Assembly: GCA_937899645.1 (NCBI GenBank)
Contig: CALCCD010000043.1
Coordinates: 1-48,038, forward strand
Direction of reading: 5' to 3'
DNA length: 48,038 nt
From: an uncultured cyanobacterium
GTDB lineage: Bacteria; Cyanobacteriota; Cyanobacteriia; Cyanobacteriales; Geitlerinemataceae
Positions 4,163 to 28,578 of this stretch are shown here, in pieces. A program made the translations under genes and the position numbers. Below the pieces are notes generated by a model. It had not been told where the DNA came from and did not search any database. It was given only the letters and a program-made list of their open reading frames with translations. Each line of letters begins with the position of its first letter. Position 1 is the first letter of the stretch.

Positions 4163-6217
4163 CTACCAGTGCTCGGAGGGCATGACGTCGCGATTTGTGG
4201 AGAACCGCTGGAGCGGACGCGCGATGACCTGAAGCCGATCGAGCGTGTCGATCAGGCGGCGGGTCTGCTCGGGATAGAGCGCGATCGGGACGGTGGCGGG
4301 CAGACTCTCAAACAGCATTCGCGTTTGCGACAGGGTGCAGCCGGTGATGCGCGAGATGGCGTTCGCGCCCTCGAAGGACGAGTGTTTAGACTGAGTTGCC
4401 AGCACTTCGACATAGCAGGTGGGGATGCGCCGATCGCCATTTTCGATGCGGCTCAGTCCTTGGCGCGTGGCGAGGACGACCAGGCGATCGGCGATCGCCA
4501 GCAGCGTATCCGGCGACGGGAACAGCCGTTCGGGCTTGAGGTCTTGATGGTGAAGCAGCGGCACGACGCCATAGCCCTCCGAGATCTCCGAAAGCAGCAG
4601 CCCGTTGAGCGTGTCGATCGCCTCGATGCGGTACTCGGTAACGGTGACGGTCTGGCCGTACCAGCGCCAGAGGTTGAGGATTTTTTCGCCGAAGGCCGCA
4701 CCCGCAAAAGCGTCGGCGGCGACGGCATGGGTGCAAAAAACGTGGGCGTCGGGAATCAGGCGCAGCAGGTCGGTTCCCAGACGGTGCTTGGAAGTGCGGA
4801 TAACGATGCGCGCCTGGGGGTTGTAGCGGCGGGCCAGGAGTGCGACTTCGAGATTGAGGATGTCGTTGTTGGTGACGGCCAGGACGCTGCTGGCGCGTTC
4901 GAGTCCGGCCCGTTCCAGGGCGCGGCGGTAGTCGCGATCGGTCAGCGTTAGCAGCGGAAACTCGCTGCGCTCCGGCAGGGTCTCGCGGGAGATACCGATC
5001 GTCGGTACGTCTAGCGTCCGCAGCAGCCGCGCCACCCCCTCGCCGACGCGCCCCCAGCCGACAACGATCGCTCGATCGCCCTCCGGCAGCGTCACCAGCT
5101 TCGGCGCAAACTGAAACCGCGTCGACAGCAGCGCCTGGGTGAGTCGCGCGTAGAGCACGCCGACAAAAGCCGTACCCGCCAAGGTCAGCACCAGCGCAAA
5201 GGCGCGCAGCAGCGGCGGAACCTCTTCATTGGGCAAAATATCCCCGAACAAATCGCCGTAGCCGCCCAGCAGCAGCACGATCGTGGTGTAGAACGCTGCG
5301 CCCCAGGAGGTGGGCAAACCCAGGTAAAACAGCAGCGTCCCGATCGCCACCAGCGCCAGCACGATCGCCCCCACCGCTCCGAAAACGCTCTGCTCGTGCT
5401 GAAAAAACGAGCCGAACCACTGCCGCCACTTGATGCGCCATCGGTGGATGCGGCGGCGAGCCCCGGTGCCCGGCGCGTTTTCGCTGACTCCGTAGAAGCC
5501 GAGCGCATCGCGAATTTCAGCAAAGACCAACACGTCGCCCGAACGCAACACGCGATCGCCTTCCGGCGCGCCAAAAACGCTCAGCTCGCCCGCGATCGTC
5601 TGGTGGCTGAGGACATGGCGGTGCTTTGTGTTTAAATCGCCCAGCCGCTGGCCGCACCACTGGGGGCCGACGACGTGACTGACGATACGGATGCCGTGGT
5701 TCGCCAGCTCGAACCAGCCGAGAATTTCATCGGACAGCGCCGCCAGCGCAAAAGACGAAGCCGTTAGCTGGGTGGGCTCGAAGGCGATAAAGTTGCCGAT
5801 CGTCTCTTCGAGCAGCGTATTGAGATTGTCCTGCACCGATCGCACGACGATACGCACATCGGGATTGAGGCGGCGCACCGTCAGCGCCGTTTCGATATTG
5901 ACGCGTTCGTCGCTGGTGACGATCAGCACCGCGCGACAAAAATCGACGCCCGCCTCGGCCAGGACGCTCGGTTCGCGGCAGTCGCCGACGATCGTTTTGT
6001 CCAGCGCTTCGGGTAGGTCCGGCGCTTCCCAGAGATGCTGGCGCTCGAAGTCGATGCCCACTGTGGTGATGCCAAAGCCCTTGAGGACGGTGACGCAATG
6101 CTGCCCGAGGCTCCCGAGGCCACAGACGATCGCGCACTCGGCGCTAGACGGGGCGGAGAATAGCGGATCTTCTAACACGATCGTTCCGGCTAAGTGTGCG
6201 AGTGCGCGACGAGCCAT
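4163..6217 (-). CDS. Two-RCK potassium channel protein (RCK - TM - pore - TM - RCK)
   Basis: A 684-residue membrane protein. The N-terminal RCK/TrkA-N domain starts with the Rossmann motif IVCGLGSLGQH (about 30-40) and is followed by a TrkA-C-like region. Next come a helix (AVGAIVLALVAIGTLLFYLG), pore helix plus selectivity filter LLLGGYGDLFG, and a second helix. A second Rossmann motif AIVVGWGRVGEGVARLL opens a C-terminal RCK domain. GYGD is the potassium filter signature, so K+ conductance gated by NAD(H), nucleotide or ions at the RCK domains is likely. An RCK domain before the pore as well as after it is an unusual order. Start ATG at 6217 was chosen because the sequence upstream is a simple repeat and GGGAA precedes this ATG. 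Confidence 0.82.
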   Translation of the reverse strand: MARRALAHLAGTIVLEDPLFSAPSSAECAIVCGLGSLGQHCVTVLKGFGITTVGIDFERQHLWEAPDLPEALDKTIVGDCREPSVLAEAGVDFCRAVLIVTSDERVNIETALTVRRLNPDVRIVVRSVQDNLNTLLEETIGNFIAFEPTQLTASSFALAALSDEILGWFELANHGIRIVSHVVGPQWCGQRLGDLNTKHRHVLSHQTIAGELSVFGAPEGDRVLRSGDVLVFAEIRDALGFYGVSENAPGTGARRRIHRWRIKWRQWFGSFFQHEQSVFGAVGAIVLALVAIGTLLFYLGLPTSWGAAFYTTIVLLLGGYGDLFGDILPNEEVPPLLRAFALVLTLAGTAFVGVLYARLTQALLSTRFQFAPKLVTLPEGDRAIVVGWGRVGEGVARLLRTLDVPTIGISRETLPERSEFPLLTLTDRDYRRALERAGLERASSVLAVTNNDILNLEVALLARRYNPQARIVIRTSKHRLGTDLLRLIPDAHVFCTHAVAADAFAGAAFGEKILNLWRWYGQTVTVTEYRIEAIDTLNGLLLSEISEGYGVVPLLHHQDLKPERLFPSPDTLLAIADRLVVLATRQGLSRIENGDRRIPTCYVEVLATQSKHSSFEGANAISRITGCTLSQTRMLFESLPATVPIALYPEQTRRLIDTLDRLQVIARPLQRFSTNRDVMPSEHW

Positions 6218-6325
6218 ACGTTCCCGACAGTAGCAAACGTCTTCTCGGTTCGAGTGAAGAGCGTCGGCGGCAAGGGGGCGAGCTGCGAAGAGCCGTGGAG
6301 ATCGGTGCGATCCCTCGCCCCGATC

Positions 6326-6453
6326 GCAAATCAAATTGCTGACTCGATCGCGAACTAAATTGCAGATCGAATCGCGAATCAAATTGCAAATCAAATTGCA
6401 AGCTAAAAATCGCGAGACAAAAGTCGCAAGCTAAAAATCTCAAGCTAAAAATT
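6326..6453. repeat. Degenerate tandem repeat, period 12 then 14 bp
   Basis: Six 12-bp units like GCAAATCAAATT (6326-6397) are followed by four 14-bp units like GCAAGCTAAAAATC (6398-6453). Units begin GC(A/G) and end in AAATT, AATC or similar. It sits in the divergent spacer between the channel gene and the GGDEF gene, is AT-rich relative to its surroundings, and lies where promoters for both genes should be. Confidence 0.85.
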
Positions 6454-6569
6454 GCAAACGAAACTGTAGCTCAAAGCGCTGCAGGACTAGAATAAGCGTA
6501 CAAGATTGCGATCGAGCTTTGACTCGCGCGAAGCTATTTTTCTTAATCCAAAACTCAGAGAGTTTTACG

Positions 6570-7502
6570 ATGCTTGCAATGATGCCTCACGGGTCGTGCT
6601 TTTTATGGAACCACGTGTTGACAAATTTACACGTCAGCTCGGATACCGTTATCGCAATTTCTTACTTCTCAATTCCGACAATGATGTTCCTCGAGCGCCA
6701 TAAGATGAACGAGGACGCCCGCTCGATCGCGATATTATTTGCGTCTTTTATCTTGAGCTGCGGCCTCGGCCATCTCGTCACTGCCTGGAATATCTGGCAT
6801 ACCGACTACTGGCTCGAAGGCTCCATCAAGCTAGTTACGGCAACAATTAGCGCTTACACAGCGATCGAGCTTTACTCAAAAATACCGCTGTTCCTGAGCG
6901 TCCACAAAAGGTTGGAGGTCTCAGAACAAAAAGTCCAAACTGACGAGCTGACCGGGATGCCAAATCGGCGAGCACTAAACCGTGAGTTAGCCCAAATTAT
7001 CGAGGATAGCAACCTGAAGGCAGAAAGCCTAGACTTCTTTGGCGATGTCGAAATTCACCACGCACTGCTGTTAGCTGACCTCGATGGATTTAAGTCGATT
7101 AATGATAATTTCGGTCATCCTATCGGCGATCTCGTCTTGCAAGAAATTGCCAAGCGCCTGCTCGATAGCACGCAGATGGGTAATATTTCAATTGCTCGCT
7201 TAGGAGGAGATGAATTTGCAGCTCTCATCAGTTTTTGCAATGAAGATAAAGTCCTCGCACTTGCCCAGGAAATCCGGACGATCGTGTGCGGCTACGCGGA
7301 CTCTAACGCATATGCTGCCACCTTGGGAATCAGCATCGGGTTTCAGCTCTTTTCCCCTGGCGACCCGACAGTAAAAGCCGAAGAAATTTACGCCGCCGCC
7401 GATCGCGCCCTCTATCACGCCAAGGAGTCCGGCAAAGGAAAAATTTCTTGGACGAATCCCCACGCCGAGACGATCTACGGGGTGCGATACCAGCAGGTTT
7501 AG
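6570..7502 (+). CDS. Ethylene-receptor-like membrane domain fused to GGDEF diguanylate cyclase
   Basis: A 310-residue protein in two parts. Residues 1-110 hold about three membrane helices resembling the ethylene-binding domain of plant ETR1 and Synechocystis Etr1: PHGSCFLW, then SDTVIAISYFSIP (D25, Y32, I35, P36) and FILSCGLGHLV (I61, C64, H68). In ETR1 the C-xxx-H pair binds Cu(I), and the equivalent Asp, Tyr, Ile and Pro matter for ethylene binding; all are kept here. Residues about 125-300 form a GGDEF domain with DELTGMPNRR, LADLDGFKSINDNFGH and intact GGDEF (212-216), so c-di-GMP synthesis is expected. No RxxD inhibitory site precedes GGDEF. ATG at 6570 was preferred to TTG at 6519 because family likeness begins there. 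The neighbouring potassium channel is divergent. Confidence 0.88.
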   Translation: MLAMMPHGSCFLWNHVLTNLHVSSDTVIAISYFSIPTMMFLERHKMNEDARSIAILFASFILSCGLGHLVTAWNIWHTDYWLEGSIKLVTATISAYTAIELYSKIPLFLSVHKRLEVSEQKVQTDELTGMPNRRALNRELAQIIEDSNLKAESLDFFGDVEIHHALLLADLDGFKSINDNFGHPIGDLVLQEIAKRLLDSTQMGNISIARLGGDEFAALISFCNEDKVLALAQEIRTIVCGYADSNAYAATLGISIGFQLFSPGDPTVKAEEIYAAADRALYHAKESGKGKISWTNPHAETIYGVRYQQV

Positions 7503-7879: not shown

Positions 7880-8020
7880 TTAGAGAAGGCCGATCTGCGA
7901 CAGAATGCCTTGACCAGTCATGATTTCAGTTGTGATGCCGATAATGAAACCGAGCATGGCCAGACGACCGTTCCAGGTTTCAGCGAATTGAGTGAAGCCG
8001 AATTTTGTTTCGTTTTCCAT
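7880..8020 (-). CDS. High-light-inducible protein (one-helix Hlip/SCP)
   Basis: A 46-residue protein found by reading the minus strand. It has the chlorophyll a/b-binding helix signature: FAETWNGRLAMLGFIIGITTE, broken here into FAETWNGRLAM and LGFIIGITTE, with the Glu and Asn-Arg pair that ligate pigment and pair helices, followed by MTGQGILSQIGLL. Such proteins sit in the thylakoid membrane, bind chlorophyll and carotenoid, and protect photosystem II and chlorophyll synthesis under strong light. AGAGG lies about 13 nt before the ATG. It is downstream of ctaB on the same strand, but an HLR1-like element in the 161-bp gap suggests its own promoter. A strong terminator follows. Confidence 0.93.
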   Translation of the reverse strand: MENETKFGFTQFAETWNGRLAMLGFIIGITTEIMTGQGILSQIGLL

Positions 8021-17577: not shown

Positions 17578-20500
17578 CTATCGTTCCACCACCTCAAAGG
17601 GGTTTTCGGCTTCGCTGGGGAGCAGTGCGGCCTGCTTTTGGCGCTTTGTCATCAAGGCGGTATAGCCGACTTTTAGGAAACCTGCCGCGACAGCACCGGG
17701 AACGCCAAGCATCGAGCCGACAACTTCGATCGCAGCTTTGACAGCCTCATCGCGCGTGTCGGAGTCGGCCACTGCACGCATCCACTGCCACCACTGATTC
17801 TGTTTTTCGGACGACTGGTACAGGATCTCGTCTTTGAAGTCGCCAGACTCGCTGGTGGCGCTGAGATCGAGGTCAGCGAGTAAGGTTTTGAGGAGTTCGG
17901 CGGTTTCGGCGGGACTGGGGTTGTTGTAGGTCGTGACGTTTTTGTCGCCCGCCACATTGTCGCCGCTGCCGCCGTGGTGTTGGGTAATGCTAGTGCCGCC
18001 GTTGACGATATTGCCTCCAGCGTATTGGCCGCTGTTGTTGACTTCGTTGTAGGCTCCACCGCCAGTGTTGATCGTGCGTCCGGTGTTGGTCATGGTGTTG
18101 ACTTGACTGGGGTAATTGTTAATAACAACGCTAGAGCTGAAGGGAGAGGATCGCCCAGTCGGATCGCCGTACCGATCGCGTTCTAGGCCACTGTTATCAA
18201 GCTCATCGCTCGAACTGGGCAGCATCGGCGCGGCAATATCGTCGAGCAGGCTGCGGACGTTGACCATTTTGTAGCTGATATCGCACTGCACCTCGTACTG
18301 TTTGTGTTGCAGGCGGCGGCGGAGGTTTTCCCAGGTGTAGGTGTGGGGTTCGGTGCTGTGCTTGCAGGTGTCGCAGTTACAGGGGATGTAGGTTTCGTAG
18401 TCGATGCGATCGTAGGTATTGGAGATTTGCTCCAGCTCGCGGGCGATATAGGTCAGCAGGTCGCGTTTGTGGTGGCCGGAGACGCGGATGCGGATGGTGG
18501 CTTTGTGGTAGCGGTCTTCTTCGATAATCTCGGCGCGGGCGCTGCGATCGCGCAAAATCACACCGTGTCGCCAGACGAGGCACTGACGCTCGATATATTC
18601 GTGGATGGCGACGACGAACCTCGGAAAGATGTCTTTGGGTTTGAATTCGTATTCGTAGCGCAGGATTAGGTTCTCGGTGTCGTCCCAATCGTAGTTGCAG
18701 CTCTCTTTCTCCAGCAGTTGCGGCGAGATGTAGCGGCCTTTGCAGTGGGGGATTTCGTAGCAGAGGCCGAAGTGCATCATCAGGTCGAGCAGTTCGTCGC
18801 GCATTTTGGCGGCGTCGCCTTCGTTCCAGATGGTTTCGAGATCGCGCTCGTCGAAGCGCCCAAAGTTGGCTTTGATCTCGCGGTTGTCGAGGATTTTGTA
18901 AATCGAGCCGGTCGCCCAGGTGGGGTTGAGTATTATCAGCTTTCGCAGGCCGCGTACTTTCTGGAAGTGGAGGCAAATCCCGAGGTCGTGGAGGAATTTG
19001 CTGGCGGCGAGCATGTCTTTTTCGTCATCAAAGCCGTTGTTGCGGCACAGCTCGAAGTAGCGATCGCGGGTAATAAAGTTCTGGTTTTGCGAGAGGTTTT
19101 CGAGGACGGCGCGGATGTTCGCCCAGGGGATCGAGACGTTGCTGCCGATGTGGGGCAAGTTGCAGAGATAGAACCGGACGAGGGTTTGGAGTTCTTCTAG
19201 ACCGCGATTGTCTGCGAGGTTGACGGCGTGGATTTCTTTAAGGTTGGGGAATTCGGCGCGGAGGCTTCGTTCGTCGAGGTCGCACTGGCGGTCTTGTTTT
19301 TCGTTTTTGACGATGATGACGGGGCTACTGTTGCTGAGGATTTCGACGATGCTGAGCCAGTAGTAGAAGTCGGTGTTTTCTTTGCGGGTGTCGGCGACGA
19401 GGATGTAGACGGCGCGTTCGGTAAGGAAGAATTGGTGGGTGGAGTGGTAGATTTGTTGGCCGCCGAAGTCCCAGATGTTCGTGCGGAGTTTAGTTTCGGG
19501 GTCGTAGTCGATTTCCCAGCGTATAAGGTCGATGCCTTCAGTAGATTTTTCTTCGGGTTGGAGCTCATAGCCGGGGTCTTGGAGCTTGTTGGCTAGGCTA
19601 GTTTTGCCTGCGCCACTTTCACCAACAATGAGAAGCTTGGCTTCAGTAATAGATGGGGTTTCGTTGGGGGGCGTGAAAGCAAGTTGAAGTATAGTCTTGA
19701 GGTCGCCCGCTGCCCAAGGCTCACGCCCAACCAGTAGTTCAGGTGCTATGTGAATCGGATTACCAGATAGGTGGAGCGTCCTCAAACTTTTGCAGTGTTG
19801 AATGAATTCTGGCAAGATGCAAATCTGATTTCCACTGATATCAACTTCCTCAAGATTCTCAAGACTCTTGATCCAAGATGGTACTCTCGAAAGCCGATTC
19901 CTCCTTAAGTCAAGATAAGACAACTTTCTTAGGTTCCCCAGCTCAGCGGGTAATTCATACAAATTATTGCCGCTAAGGTCTAAGACTTTTATATCTTTTA
20001 GACTCCCGATCTCTTGTGGAACGAAAGATACTTCGTTGCTCCCAAGAAATAACTTCTCAAGACTTTCTAAAAGACCTATTCTCGGAGATATATTTTTGAG
20101 TCCGACCTTCCAAAGCTTCAGATTGCGAAGTTTTGACAATTCAAACAGATCGGTGGGGAGCGATTCGATTTTATTTCCGCTCAAAGTCAGAGACTCGAGC
20201 GTAGAAATATGAGATATGCCTTCTGGTATTTTCTCTAAAATATTGTAGCTGAGGCTTAGGCAAGATAAGAAATCAAGATTAGATATCTCAACTGGTATAT
20301 CCTGAAGGCGATTGCCTCCAAGATCCAAGAATGAAACCTTTGGTAGAGAGAATATTTCCTTCGGGATTTCGGTAAGCCTATTTCTGTATAAGGAAAGTTC
20401 TTTAATCTCTCTACATTCAGCCAATTCGATAGGGATGCTTGTCAGGTGGTTGCATCCTATATCTAGAGATTTAAGGTTTGACATTTCTCGGATGTCTGAT

Positions 20501-21042
20501 GAAATCCGGCTAATCTGGCTGTTGTGAATATGAAACCGCTCTAGTTTTTCTAATTCTGCTAAAAATCCAGGAATTTCTTGTATCTCATTTCTTCCAATAG
20601 ACAAAGATTTTAGACCCTGACACTCCACCAGTTTCCTTGGTACTTCATTGAATCCATTATCATCAATGTCGAGATCTTGCAAAGATTCAAGCTGAGTTAG
20701 ACAGTCCGGTATTGTCCCTAGGTTGTTATTCCAAAGATCGACCTCTCTGAGATTCTTCAAAGCTGAAAGACTTGAAGGGAGTTTTTGTAGACGGTTAAAA
20801 GCTACTCTTAAAATCCTGAGATTTTCCAGGCTTCCTATACTATCAGGCAGGCTTTGTAAGAAATTACCGTGATCTAGCTTTTCTTTTTCATCATATCGAC
20901 CAAGGCTCAGGCATTCTAGCTCTGTTAGCCCTCCAATTTCCGGTGGTAACTCCTCGATCCCCATCCCCGATAAATCCAACTCCTTCCACCCCTCATCCTT
21001 CGCCCGCGCCAACAGCTCCAACAACTCTTTCCGCGTCGTCAT
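17578..21042 (-). CDS. Roco protein: leucine-rich repeats, Roc GTPase, COR, Asn/Gly-rich linker, C-terminal domain
   Basis: A 1154-residue protein. Residues about 17-430 are roughly 18 leucine-rich repeats of about 23 residues (L--L-LS-N-L--IP--I). The Roc GTPase has P-loop GESGAGKTS (about 474-482) and switch II WDFGGQ (about 524), with VKNEKQD in place of NKxD. COR follows (about 640-900) with a CNCDTCKHS cysteine cluster near 890. Residues about 960-1040 are Asn/Gly-rich (INNYPSQVN, GGSGDNVAGDKN), then comes a short helical domain with Ala/Gly-rich, possibly membrane-active segment (SMLGVPGAVAAGFLKVGY). Roco proteins are dimer-regulated GTPases; the output here is unknown. The LRR half is AT-rich with no GCGATCGC sites, unlike the GTPase half, suggesting separate origins. 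ATG at 21042 preferred over 21060. Confidence 0.9.
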   Translation of the reverse strand: MTTRKELLELLARAKDEGWKELDLSGMGIEELPPEIGGLTELECLSLGRYDEKEKLDHGNFLQSLPDSIGSLENLRILRVAFNRLQKLPSSLSALKNLREVDLWNNNLGTIPDCLTQLESLQDLDIDDNGFNEVPRKLVECQGLKSLSIGRNEIQEIPGFLAELEKLERFHIHNSQISRISSDIREMSNLKSLDIGCNHLTSIPIELAECREIKELSLYRNRLTEIPKEIFSLPKVSFLDLGGNRLQDIPVEISNLDFLSCLSLSYNILEKIPEGISHISTLESLTLSGNKIESLPTDLFELSKLRNLKLWKVGLKNISPRIGLLESLEKLFLGSNEVSFVPQEIGSLKDIKVLDLSGNNLYELPAELGNLRKLSYLDLRRNRLSRVPSWIKSLENLEEVDISGNQICILPEFIQHCKSLRTLHLSGNPIHIAPELLVGREPWAAGDLKTILQLAFTPPNETPSITEAKLLIVGESGAGKTSLANKLQDPGYELQPEEKSTEGIDLIRWEIDYDPETKLRTNIWDFGGQQIYHSTHQFFLTERAVYILVADTRKENTDFYYWLSIVEILSNSSPVIIVKNEKQDRQCDLDERSLRAEFPNLKEIHAVNLADNRGLEELQTLVRFYLCNLPHIGSNVSIPWANIRAVLENLSQNQNFITRDRYFELCRNNGFDDEKDMLAASKFLHDLGICLHFQKVRGLRKLIILNPTWATGSIYKILDNREIKANFGRFDERDLETIWNEGDAAKMRDELLDLMMHFGLCYEIPHCKGRYISPQLLEKESCNYDWDDTENLILRYEYEFKPKDIFPRFVVAIHEYIERQCLVWRHGVILRDRSARAEIIEEDRYHKATIRIRVSGHHKRDLLTYIARELEQISNTYDRIDYETYIPCNCDTCKHSTEPHTYTWENLRRRLQHKQYEVQCDISYKMVNVRSLLDDIAAPMLPSSSDELDNSGLERDRYGDPTGRSSPFSSSVVINNYPSQVNTMTNTGRTINTGGGAYNEVNNSGQYAGGNIVNGGTSITQHHGGSGDNVAGDKNVTTYNNPSPAETAELLKTLLADLDLSATSESGDFKDEILYQSSEKQNQWWQWMRAVADSDTRDEAVKAAIEVVGSMLGVPGAVAAGFLKVGYTALMTKRQKQAALLPSEAENPFEVVER

Positions 21043-21073
21043 CCCCAAACCCCAAACCACAACAGCCCCTATT

Positions 21074-22453: not shown

Positions 22454-22549
22454 GGGTCTGAACCCATGCAATTGTGACGCCCAAATCTTGTCAGGACCGG
22501 AAGGTAGCAGCAATACGGGATGCTCGCGATAGGCGTGGACTTCGGGCCC
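22454..22549 (+). ncRNA. ffs: Signal recognition particle RNA (4.5S-type)
   Basis: A 96-nt small SRP RNA. The invariant tip is present: GTCAGGACCGGAAGGTAGCAGCA, here given in parts GTCAGGACCGGAAGG and TAGCAGCA (22490-22512), containing the GGAA tetraloop and the symmetric loop contacted by Ffh. The ends pair over 9 bp: GGGTCTGAA (22454-22462) with TTCGGGCCC (22541-22549). It binds Ffh and guides membrane proteins to the translocon. A T-rich stretch (TTTTGAGTTTTTTG) immediately follows and may help termination. Confidence 0.95.
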
Positions 22550-22574
22550 TTTTGAGTTTTTTGTTCCAACCGCA

Positions 22575-26219: not shown

Positions 26220-26495
26220 AGGTTGAAATACCTAGGTAAAACGATTGTCCCATCCTGTTTGTAACAAAGTATAAAGATTCCTGCAATTCGTAGAACCTCA
26301 CCTCTTGCGATGCCACGGGGTGTGCCGCGACGTTCCGCGATTGCTGCGAACAGTATGGAAGGCGGGAAGTATCCTTCGTTTCGCGAACCTGTGGCAAAAC
26401 CACGTCGGGATTGTTCGGGTCGCACGGCGCTCTAAAATCGAGTGCGCCTTATCCCCAGGATACAGCGCTGCGTCCCCGATCCTCGCGTCGCCGCC

Positions 26496-27134
26496 ATGAT
26501 AGAAGACTGGATTGAAATCGGCAGAATCGTTGGCCCCCATGGGCTTCACGGCCAGCTCAAGGTGTACCCCAGTTCGGATTTCCCAGAGCGCTTCCTAGAG
26601 CCGGGGACGCGCTGGCTGAAGCGGCGGGGGCAGCACGAACCGGAGCCCGTCGAGCTGACGTTCGGGCGCGACGTGCCGGGGAAGAACCTATTTGCGATTG
26701 AAATCGAAGGTATTGAAGATCGCGATCGGGCAGAGGTTCTGCGGGATGCGGTGCTGTACGTGCGCGGGGACGATCGCCCAGAGCTGGAGGAGGGCGAGTT
26801 TCACGTGATGGATTTAGTCGGCCTGGAGGCGCGGATCGCGTCGAGCGGGAAGCGGATCGGGGTGGTGGCGGATGTGATGTCGTCGGGGAACGATTTACTG
26901 TCGATCGAGCTAGATGAGCCGATCGCGGCGAAGGAAACGTCGTCGAGCCGTCGGCGGTTTCGCCGCAAGCAGAAGGTGAAGCAGCCGCAGACGCACGTTT
27001 TGGTTCCGTTTGTGGAGGCGATCGTGCCGGTGGTGGATGTTGCGGGGGGATTCGTGGCGATCGTGCCGATTCCGGGGTTGTTGGACGAGCGCAGCGCCAT
27101 GATTCGGGAAGACACACCCGACCCTCAGGTATAA
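26496..27134 (+). CDS. rimM: 16S rRNA processing protein RimM
   Basis: A 212-residue ribosome maturation factor that binds S19 and helps assemble the 30S head. The N-terminal RimM barrel is standard (IEIGRIVGPHGLHGQLKVYP), and the C-terminal PRC-barrel carries GEFHVMDLVGL and VLVPFVEAIVPVVDVAGG. A basic insert (SSRRRFRRKQKVKQPQ) lies inside the PRC domain. ATG at 26496 gives MIEDWIEIGRIV, the normal start. The second half of this gene (26712-27096) is present a second time downstream without a single difference. Confidence 0.95.
   Translation: MIEDWIEIGRIVGPHGLHGQLKVYPSSDFPERFLEPGTRWLKRRGQHEPEPVELTFGRDVPGKNLFAIEIEGIEDRDRAEVLRDAVLYVRGDDRPELEEGEFHVMDLVGLEARIASSGKRIGVVADVMSSGNDLLSIELDEPIAAKETSSSRRRFRRKQKVKQPQTHVLVPFVEAIVPVVDVAGGFVAIVPIPGLLDERSAMIREDTPDPQV
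26712..27096 (+). repeat. 385-bp direct repeat, left copy (inside rimM)
   Basis: Identical to 28138-28522 base for base on comparison by eye, at an offset of 1426 bp. It covers rimM from codon 73 almost to the end. Beyond both edges similarity falls off, though the right flanks still resemble each other (GATTC-GGAAGAC). Confidence 0.95.
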
Positions 27135-27353: not shown

Positions 27354-28076
27354 ATGAACTGGAATGTAGCGATTGCGGCAGGTGGCGGCGCGAGTCTTGA
27401 TTTCTTAGAAATTGCAGTTATCGCCTATGCCATAGCGAGATCGGGTTACCAACGCGAGGCGATCGCTGGCTGCGCAGCCGGTATATCGAGCGTAGCGATT
27501 GCTGCGGTGGCACTGGGCTCGAATATTCAGCTCGTCCCGCTCCACTGGCTACAGCTAATTACTGGGGCGGTGTTGCTTTGGTTCGGTTGGGGCTGGACGA
27601 AAAAGGCAGTGGTGCGGCAGGCGACCGGGCGGCGTGCGGGCTGGCTGGCTGACGATCCGCTAGAAGCAGAAGCAATCGCGCTAGAGGCCGCACCGCAGGG
27701 ATTCAGTACGGCAAACTTTATCGTAATGGCCAAAAGTGCAGCGCTAGAAGCGTTTGAGGTCGCGGTTATCGCTGTAACGCTAGGAATCGCGTCGAGTGCT
27801 TGGGGCGAAGTTTTGGGAGCTGTGGGAGTCGCCTGTGTGGGGTCGATCGTCGTGGTGGCAGCACTCCATGCTTATCTGGCAAAAGTCCCCGATGTGTTGA
27901 TTAAGTTGGGGACAGGGATCGTGCTGTTGGCGTTGGGTACGTTTTGGCTTGGGGAAGGTTCAGGCTGGGAATGGCCGGGAGACTGGGCAGTTGTGGGGTT
28001 GATTTGTCTGTATGGTTTGGTTTCCGCTTTTGCCGCGTTCTGGCTCGGCCGCAAGATGGAGAACTCGGCAGTTTGA
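27354..28076 (+). CDS. Polytopic membrane protein of COG4280 type (putative transporter)
   Basis: A 240-residue membrane protein with about seven helices in two related halves. Each half begins with the same kind of acidic, helical motif: ASLDFLEIAVIAYAIARSG (about 14-32) and AALEAFEVAVIAVTLGIAS (about 125-143). Conserved Glu in paired membrane motifs recalls exporter families such as LysE or Gdt1, but I cannot name the substrate. The internal duplication suggests an inverted-repeat-type fold. The gene stands alone between the two rimM copies, preceded by 219 bp with an inverted repeat CAGAACC/GGTTCTG. Confidence 0.7.
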   Translation: MNWNVAIAAGGGASLDFLEIAVIAYAIARSGYQREAIAGCAAGISSVAIAAVALGSNIQLVPLHWLQLITGAVLLWFGWGWTKKAVVRQATGRRAGWLADDPLEAEAIALEAAPQGFSTANFIVMAKSAALEAFEVAVIAVTLGIASSAWGEVLGAVGVACVGSIVVVAALHAYLAKVPDVLIKLGTGIVLLALGTFWLGEGSGWEWPGDWAVVGLICLYGLVSAFAAFWLGRKMENSAV

Positions 28077-28137
28077 GGAAAGAATTCAGGCCAAGCAATT
28101 GTGGAATGCCGCGCTATCTGCGAGCGAAATCGATGGC

Positions 28138-28578
28138 ATTGAAGATCGCGATCGGGCAGAGGTTCTGCGGGATGCGGTGCTGTACGTGCGCGGGGACGAT
28201 CGCCCAGAGCTGGAGGAGGGCGAGTTTCACGTGATGGATTTAGTCGGCCTGGAGGCGCGGATCGCGTCGAGCGGGAAGCGGATCGGGGTGGTGGCGGATG
28301 TGATGTCGTCGGGGAACGATTTACTGTCGATCGAGCTAGATGAGCCGATCGCGGCGAAGGAAACGTCGTCGAGCCGTCGGCGGTTTCGCCGCAAGCAGAA
28401 GGTGAAGCAGCCGCAGACGCACGTTTTGGTTCCGTTTGTGGAGGCGATCGTGCCGGTGGTGGATGTTGCGGGGGGATTCGTGGCGATCGTGCCGATTCCG
28501 GGGTTGTTGGACGAGCGCAGCGTCACGATTCAGGAAGACGAGCCCGATCCCAAGCCAGACGAAGAGCAAGGCCAATGA
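28138..28578 (+). pseudogene. RimM C-terminal fragment (duplicate), with 385-bp repeat right copy
   Basis: From 28138 to 28522 it repeats rimM codons 73-200 exactly, then ends differently (VTIQEDEPDPKPDEEQGQ instead of AMIREDTPDPQV). It lacks the N-terminal RimM domain; the frame runs back into the membrane gene with no good start, so it is probably not a working protein. Its stop overlaps the next ATG (ATGA). That suggests this right copy keeps the ancestral rimM 3' end and junction with the DUF4291 gene. Confidence 0.88.

Follow-up and report, generated by a model that had tools for sequence, protein, structure and literature searches.

By its sequence, the protein encoded at positions 6570–7502 (+) of the window—the whole 48,038-nucleotide stretch of DNA analysed here, from an uncultured cyanobacterium of the family Geitlerinemataceae—is a member of both the ETR1-type sensor family and the GGDEF family and lies outside the kinase-type ethylene receptors. 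We propose that it is a single-chain receptor that takes up ethylene, or a small ligand much like it, at a putative Cu(I) site and thereby tunes its production of c-di-GMP, a reading that we consider moderately probable. Support for it comes from the Pfam matches, the residue set of the sensor, the intact residues of the GGDEF domain, the predicted helices, the clade formed with relatives, and selection on the sensor, to which we add the GGDEF and ComFB matches of the source genome. Counted against it are variation in the ETR1 K91 column, two proteins with altered site residues (L354 and L282), a thin monomer model, weak hydropathy, and the lack of a PilZ match in the source genome.

Under this proposal, three helices would form an ETR1-type sensor holding Cu(I) through D25, C64, and H68, and ethylene, or a small copper ligand akin to it, would bind at the Cu(I). 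Binding would shift the packing of the helices; helix 3, predicted to be continuous from the membrane to the cyclase, would relay the change, altering the way in which the two GGDEF domains of a dimer meet and thereby the rate of c-di-GMP synthesis.

Gene architecture, putative metal site, and cyclase

The 310-aa open reading frame runs from ATG 6570 to a stop codon at 7502; all coordinates of its parts given below are on the + strand. An in-frame TTG at 6519 is an alternative start (327 aa), but the relatives favour the ATG: 6 of the 13 listed open with MLALMPHGSCFLW or MIALMPHGSCFLW, similarly to the window protein, which opens with MLAMMPHGSCFLW. Pfam places ETR1_N (PF25487) at residues 17–110 (6618–6899; E = 1.8e-27; 95.9 bits against a curated cut-off of 27, and 98.8 bits in the whole-genome search) and GGDEF (PF00990) at residues 123–290 (6936–7439; E = 1.3e-31; 110 bits against a curated cut-off of 23.8); a Pfam search of the protein up to E 1 returned no family beyond these two. 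The presence of a complete GGDEF domain in the same chain as an ETR1-type domain, as an earlier note on this DNA had claimed, is thereby confirmed by Pfam and by motif reading. Kinase-type ethylene receptors carry a histidine kinase output, complete or degenerate; here, GGDEF alone lies beyond residue 122. An artefact of assembly or annotation was rejected, as the frame is uninterrupted and the compact architecture recurs in 21 other genomes (in one of which the gene, L369, has an in-frame stop).

The earlier note had also placed the equivalents of the ETR1 site residues in this protein, and the alignment bears this out. A MAFFT alignment of ETR1 and AzoEtr1 with the sensor domains of the fetched loci places residues D25 (codon 6642–6644), Y32, I35, P36, I61, C64 (TGC, 6759–6761), and H68 (CAT, 6771–6773) in the ETR1 columns D25, Y32, I35, P36, I62, C65, and H69. 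The residues at these columns, DYIPICH, are identical in the window protein, AzoEtr1, and ETR1. We take Y32, I35, P36, and I62 to belong to ETR1's seven-residue set, following the earlier note. The full set is widespread, occurring in 119 of the 187 non-reference rows of the alignment. K87 of the window protein occupies the ETR1 K91 column (Lys in both), a position presumably of importance; among the 22 compact proteins described below, this column holds Lys in 9 and Thr or Ser in 13. C10 falls in the ETR1 C6 column, in line with the excerpted text of PMC6682694, according to which the cyanobacterial receptors compared there have one Cys at that position.

Excerpts of the literature describe the copper site of ETR1 as Asp25, Cys65, and His69 (PMC12643061), with concurring positions for C65 and H69 (PMC6586836), and state that ethylene binding to ETR1 requires seven residues, whose names are given in a figure (PMC6682694). 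Since those seven are reportedly required in ETR1 and are common to AzoEtr1 (PMC11819568, likewise in excerpt), we assign Cu(I) and ethylene to the window protein as candidate ligands, D25 being a putative copper-site residue and C64 and H68 putative Cu(I) ligands. The main rival to ethylene is copper or another small ligand: the sensor might bind Cu(I) but report copper itself or such a ligand, for example carbon monoxide or a different alkene, in which case ethylene would not be the natural signal. The conserved residues argue for a metal site more than for a ligand, the K91 column varies within the compact family, and Cu(I) loading by itself is described, in the text available from PMC12643061, as stiffening full-length ETR1. 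However, the reported requirement for the seven residues in ethylene binding by ETR1 (PMC6682694) and the report of AzoEtr1, with the same seven, as a functional ethylene-binding protein (PMC11819568), both taken from excerpts, speak for ethylene, and we regard the rival as unlikely, if deserving of serious attention.

The AlphaFold2 model (30-row alignment; mean pLDDT 85.3) has helices at residues 15–41 (6612–6692), 48–77 (6711–6800), and 80–122 (6807–6935). It is a model of the monomer, its sensor part is supported by about five sequences, and block means of pLDDT are 70–85 across residues 11–110. The Asp, Tyr, Ile, and Pro of the site lie on predicted membrane helix 1 and the Ile, Cys, and His on predicted membrane helix 2, so that the prediction has the three-helix arrangement of an ETR1-type sensor, with Asp on the first helix and Cys and His together on the second. 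The Cys and His thus share a helix and occupy matching helix positions in the alignment, and the earlier assignment of the site withstands both comparisons. Predicted helix 3, comprising a membrane part and a signalling helix and including K87, is unbroken to residue 122, directly ahead of D125 in the DELTG motif. By hydropathy, helix 2 alone passes the threshold in the window protein, with helices 1 and 3 weakly hydrophobic, whereas ETR1 has three peaks and AzoEtr1 four. A PDB sequence search with the sensor found no solved chain (the best match, E 0.27, was to unrelated proteins); family members, at about 300 residues, lend themselves to solving the structure of this sensor.

The cyclase domain carries the complete GGDEF signature: DELTG, DLDGFK, the GTP-site residues N and D, and GGDEF (residues 212–216; 7203–7217), in the motif string DELTG, DLDGFKSINDNFGH..GD, GGDEF. 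These residues serve catalysis and GTP binding in diguanylate cyclases. A GGDEF domain that is a poor enzyme and serves instead to bind nucleotide or mediate interactions, leaving the protein no source of c-di-GMP, is very improbable, as every catalytic and GTP-site residue looked for is present and solved structures of diguanylate cyclases head its fold matches in the PDB. The RxxD product-inhibition site, common but optional in such domains, is replaced by MGNI upstream of the catalytic motif. The absence of RxxD, correctly read for the window protein, does not extend to its family: RxxD occurs in 19 of the 22 compact proteins and is absent in the window protein and that of Spirulina, the remaining one (L366) not being readable by the pattern used.

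A compact sensor–GGDEF family

The possibility that the fusion is unique to the source genome was rejected, the compact form being found in 21 other genomes. Two-domain profile searches, in which at most six candidates were scored per genome and the genome samples overlap, recovered it in 3/386 genomes across the phylum, 2/388 of the order, and 21/358 of the class; a third match in the order sample and a 22nd in the class sample are sensor–GGDEF–EAL proteins. Combined, these searches yield 22 compact proteins, including that of the window, from 10 genera and 7 families, with 13 of the 22 in one genus. The tally of genera and families was made by group codes, that of Spirulina being taken from G783, whose protein reading is the same as that of L034.

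The compact proteins form one clade without kinase sensors (SH-aLRT 100) on a 126-row tree built without L217, L315, L316, L282, L281, and L213 and with only about half as many kinase rows. On a 200-sensor tree, from which only L217, L315, and L316 were left out, L213, L281, and L282, with their long branches, neighbour the four compact sensors (SH-aLRT 81), and the edge of the family is therefore not fixed.

All seven site residues are kept in 21 of the 22 compact proteins. The exception, L354 (1489–2370, −), has PRG for PHG near its start; Gly replaces the Cys ligand and the GGDEF domain is retained. Near-invariant columns make up 39 of the 105 of the sensor, and all seven site residues are among them (seven columns drawn at random would all fall there with P = 0.0007). 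In a comparison of 12 relatives, to which the window gene did not belong, dN/dS is 0.00–0.28 for the sensor and, where defined, 0.00–0.33 for the cyclase, in each case for 54 of the 66 pairs, the remaining pairs being too diverged to list. Purifying selection acts on the sensor in the close relatives compared, and the low values in both parts indicate that both halves are maintained in those 12 relatives. Variation in the K91 column and at RxxD, in turn, counts against a uniform mechanism throughout the family.

Genome G135 encodes a natural control pair: an intact compact copy (L116) and a paralogous sensor–GGDEF protein (L282; 162–1154, +) in which six of the seven site residues differ (HCLPLLQ). 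Since L282 keeps its GGDEF domain with the site residues changed, fusion to GGDEF does not in itself constrain the site.

The window gene itself has a GC3 of 59.2, compared with a median of 75.9, and ranks third lowest among 32 hand-picked window genes; no match at E ≤ 1e-60 was found in the genomes listed, 2 from the same genus (with completeness of 86 and 82 percent) and 11 from the same family. Because of this low GC3 and the absence of matches in those genomes, the gene may be a recent arrival in the source genome.

These observations bear on a reading in which the sensor serves chiefly to anchor and dimerise a constitutive cyclase at the membrane, with its binding residues inherited but unused. 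The weakly hydrophobic helices 1 and 3 of the window protein, the loss of site residues in the GGDEF fusions L282 and L354, and the GC3 value that marks the window gene as a possible recent arrival would all suit an anchor. An anchor, however, would have no use for an Asp, a Tyr, and a Cys-x3-His pair inside its helices, and neither the retention of all seven residues in 21 of the 22 members nor the low dN/dS of the sensor in relatives fits with it; we therefore think this reading quite unlikely and favour a ligand-binding receptor.

Genomic setting and outputs of related sensors

The window gene stands alone, with a divergent TrkA-type gene at 4163–6394 on one side and, on the other, a convergent gene for 46 residues at 7883–8020 (Pfam Chloroa_b-bind), presumably a high-light-inducible protein. 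Inspection by eye of the regions around the gene in 13 relatives revealed no shared signalling gene. A divergent gene resembling that of the glycine cleavage T protein (by eye) adjoins 7 of the 8 relatives listed from family f26; this recurring neighbour indicates that the gene is old in that family and says nothing about function. The earlier suggestion of a role in light-driven motility or a biofilm choice thus finds no support in the neighbouring TrkA-type and chlorophyll-binding-like genes or in the flanks of the 13 relatives. A promoter scan of the region found 0 where 1.3 were expected, and a link to a defence system is not supported, there being no PADLOC match.

The source genome has 15 GGDEF matches, including the window gene, and 3 matches to ComFB; PilZ had no match there. 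According to excerpts of PMC12313861 and PMC13075795, ComFB/CdgR proteins are cyanobacterial c-di-GMP receptors.

Two further ETR1_N genes are present in the source genome. One (L003; contig C40, 1–1818, −) encodes a sensor followed by a degenerate GGDEF domain, with AGADGF for the motif, and EAL; its sensor, which appears as L213 in the alignment, keeps six of the seven site residues, with Leu for Ile. The other (L001; contig C103, 1405–2842, +) is a kinase-type gene that appears to be split, its sensor frame and kinase end lying in different frames through a frameshift or sequencing error.

Elsewhere in the window, a long stretch of the C-terminal part of the protein encoded at 26442–27134 is repeated about 1.5 kb downstream at 28012–28578 in near-identical sequence (by eye), as if a gene that we take to be RimM-like had been duplicated in part. 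A 1160-aa protein of leucine-rich repeats with a small GTPase-like part (by eye) is encoded at 17578–21060 (−), has low GC3, and gave no PADLOC match; a bacterial small SRP RNA lies at 22455–22551 (+; Rfam RF00169, 60.6 bits).

Across the phylum, ETR1_N matched in 90 of the 386 genomes sampled (88 above the cut-off), with 217 matches in total (126 + 91). Sensor loci were fetched for 184 of these 217, leaving out 19 frames of at least 1000 aa and 14 that were short, weak, or broken; one fetched locus (L316) has no sensor ORF, so 183 proteins were classified. As shares of this non-random sample, the outputs are kinase in 157, GGDEF in 15, GGDEF with EAL in 5, and neither in 6 (the split kinase gene L001 of the source genome among them), so that 20/183 have a c-di-GMP-type (GGDEF-bearing) output. 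Classes were assigned by models built on the window and locus sequences, and Pfam was concordant for all eight of the sensor proteins checked.

In the class of Rheinheimera, ETR1_N matched in 16/369 genomes (12 above the cut-off). Three proteins there carry GGDEF, one of them, from Rheinheimera aquimaris, being a short fusion with a longer linker; the loci from this class reach no further than about 1.5 kb from the sensor, and the sample is centred on a genome picked for its fusion.

Kinase and c-di-GMP outputs interchange at least 12 times on the 200-sensor tree (11 times on the 126-row tree), and the sensor has therefore been joined to or parted from c-di-GMP outputs many times. Five ETR1_N GGDEF proteins with frames of 584–592 aa (L214, L215, L216, L279, and L280) have His at the D25 column, fail in part the catalytic-site patterns, and form one clade on the 200-sensor tree (SH-aLRT 100); this group possibly has a different metal site. 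A plasmid search with the full-length protein returned at least 5000 records; the 20 matches listed are 27–32% identical, and GGDEF, EAL, or cyclase genes make up most of those among the 20 that carry an annotation.

Known systems and significance

ETR1 of Arabidopsis shares with the window protein the three-helix N-terminal domain and the seven residues in register; the window protein has a diguanylate cyclase as its output, without the GAF, histidine kinase, or receiver parts of ETR1. The longer ETR1_N proteins of c-di-GMP type in cyanobacteria and Gammaproteobacteria (sensor–linker–GGDEF and sensor–GGDEF–EAL) have the same two modules, but their sensors lie outside the compact clade on the 126-row tree, with L213, L281, and L282 left out. 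Membrane-bound diguanylate cyclases with other sensors (e.g. the MASE type and an ammonium-transporter GGDEF protein, PDB 8qj3) likewise join a membrane sensor to GGDEF; they differ in having no ETR1-type copper site, and 8qj3 matched by sequence in its GGDEF part only.

SynEtr1/UirS (Slr1212) of Synechocystis, as excerpted from PMC6682694, is also a cyanobacterial receptor with an ethylene-binding N-terminal domain. It combines the sensor with a cyanobacteriochrome and a histidine kinase and has a response regulator downstream, whereas the window protein carries its cyclase in the chain; the likeness is drawn from descriptions, not from sequence. AzoEtr1 of Azospirillum brasilense has all seven residues and a sensor 39.1% identical to that of the window protein, but its output consists of PAS and histidine kinase parts, and a response regulator gene lies downstream. 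The copy used here (L324) is on a plasmid of strain 2020WEIHUA_K and was identified by its start and its length of 525 aa, which fit the excerpted description in PMC11819568.

That ethylene-domain proteins of bacteria have unusual outputs is already known in general terms: PMC7700396, in excerpt, reports a wide range, some absent from plant receptors, although the word GGDEF does not occur in the text of that paper. In the excerpts of PMC6682694, a gene with a diguanylate cyclase domain is grouped with GeiEtr2, not as a fusion. A census covering the inputs of c-di-GMP signalling (PMC8846402) mentions MASE in passing; the words ‘ethylene’ and ‘copper’ are absent from its main text. No description of an ETR1_N–GGDEF fusion was found in the literature searched, though reviews may already mention one. 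The effects of ethylene on Synechocystis (biofilm and phototaxis) are traced, in the excerpts of PMC11819568 and PMC6682694, through a histidine kinase receptor.

We suggest tentatively, and at slightly less than an even chance, that the compact protein is a dedicated, conserved ethylene receptor that would turn a gas into c-di-GMP within one chain of 300 residues, without a kinase or response regulator, and would be a second evolutionary solution to ethylene signalling, present in at least 10 cyanobacterial genera. If the compact family does respond to ethylene, it would connect a gas to c-di-GMP directly and offer a small protein for measuring metal binding together with output; the family is conserved, and its ligand is now accessible to experiment.
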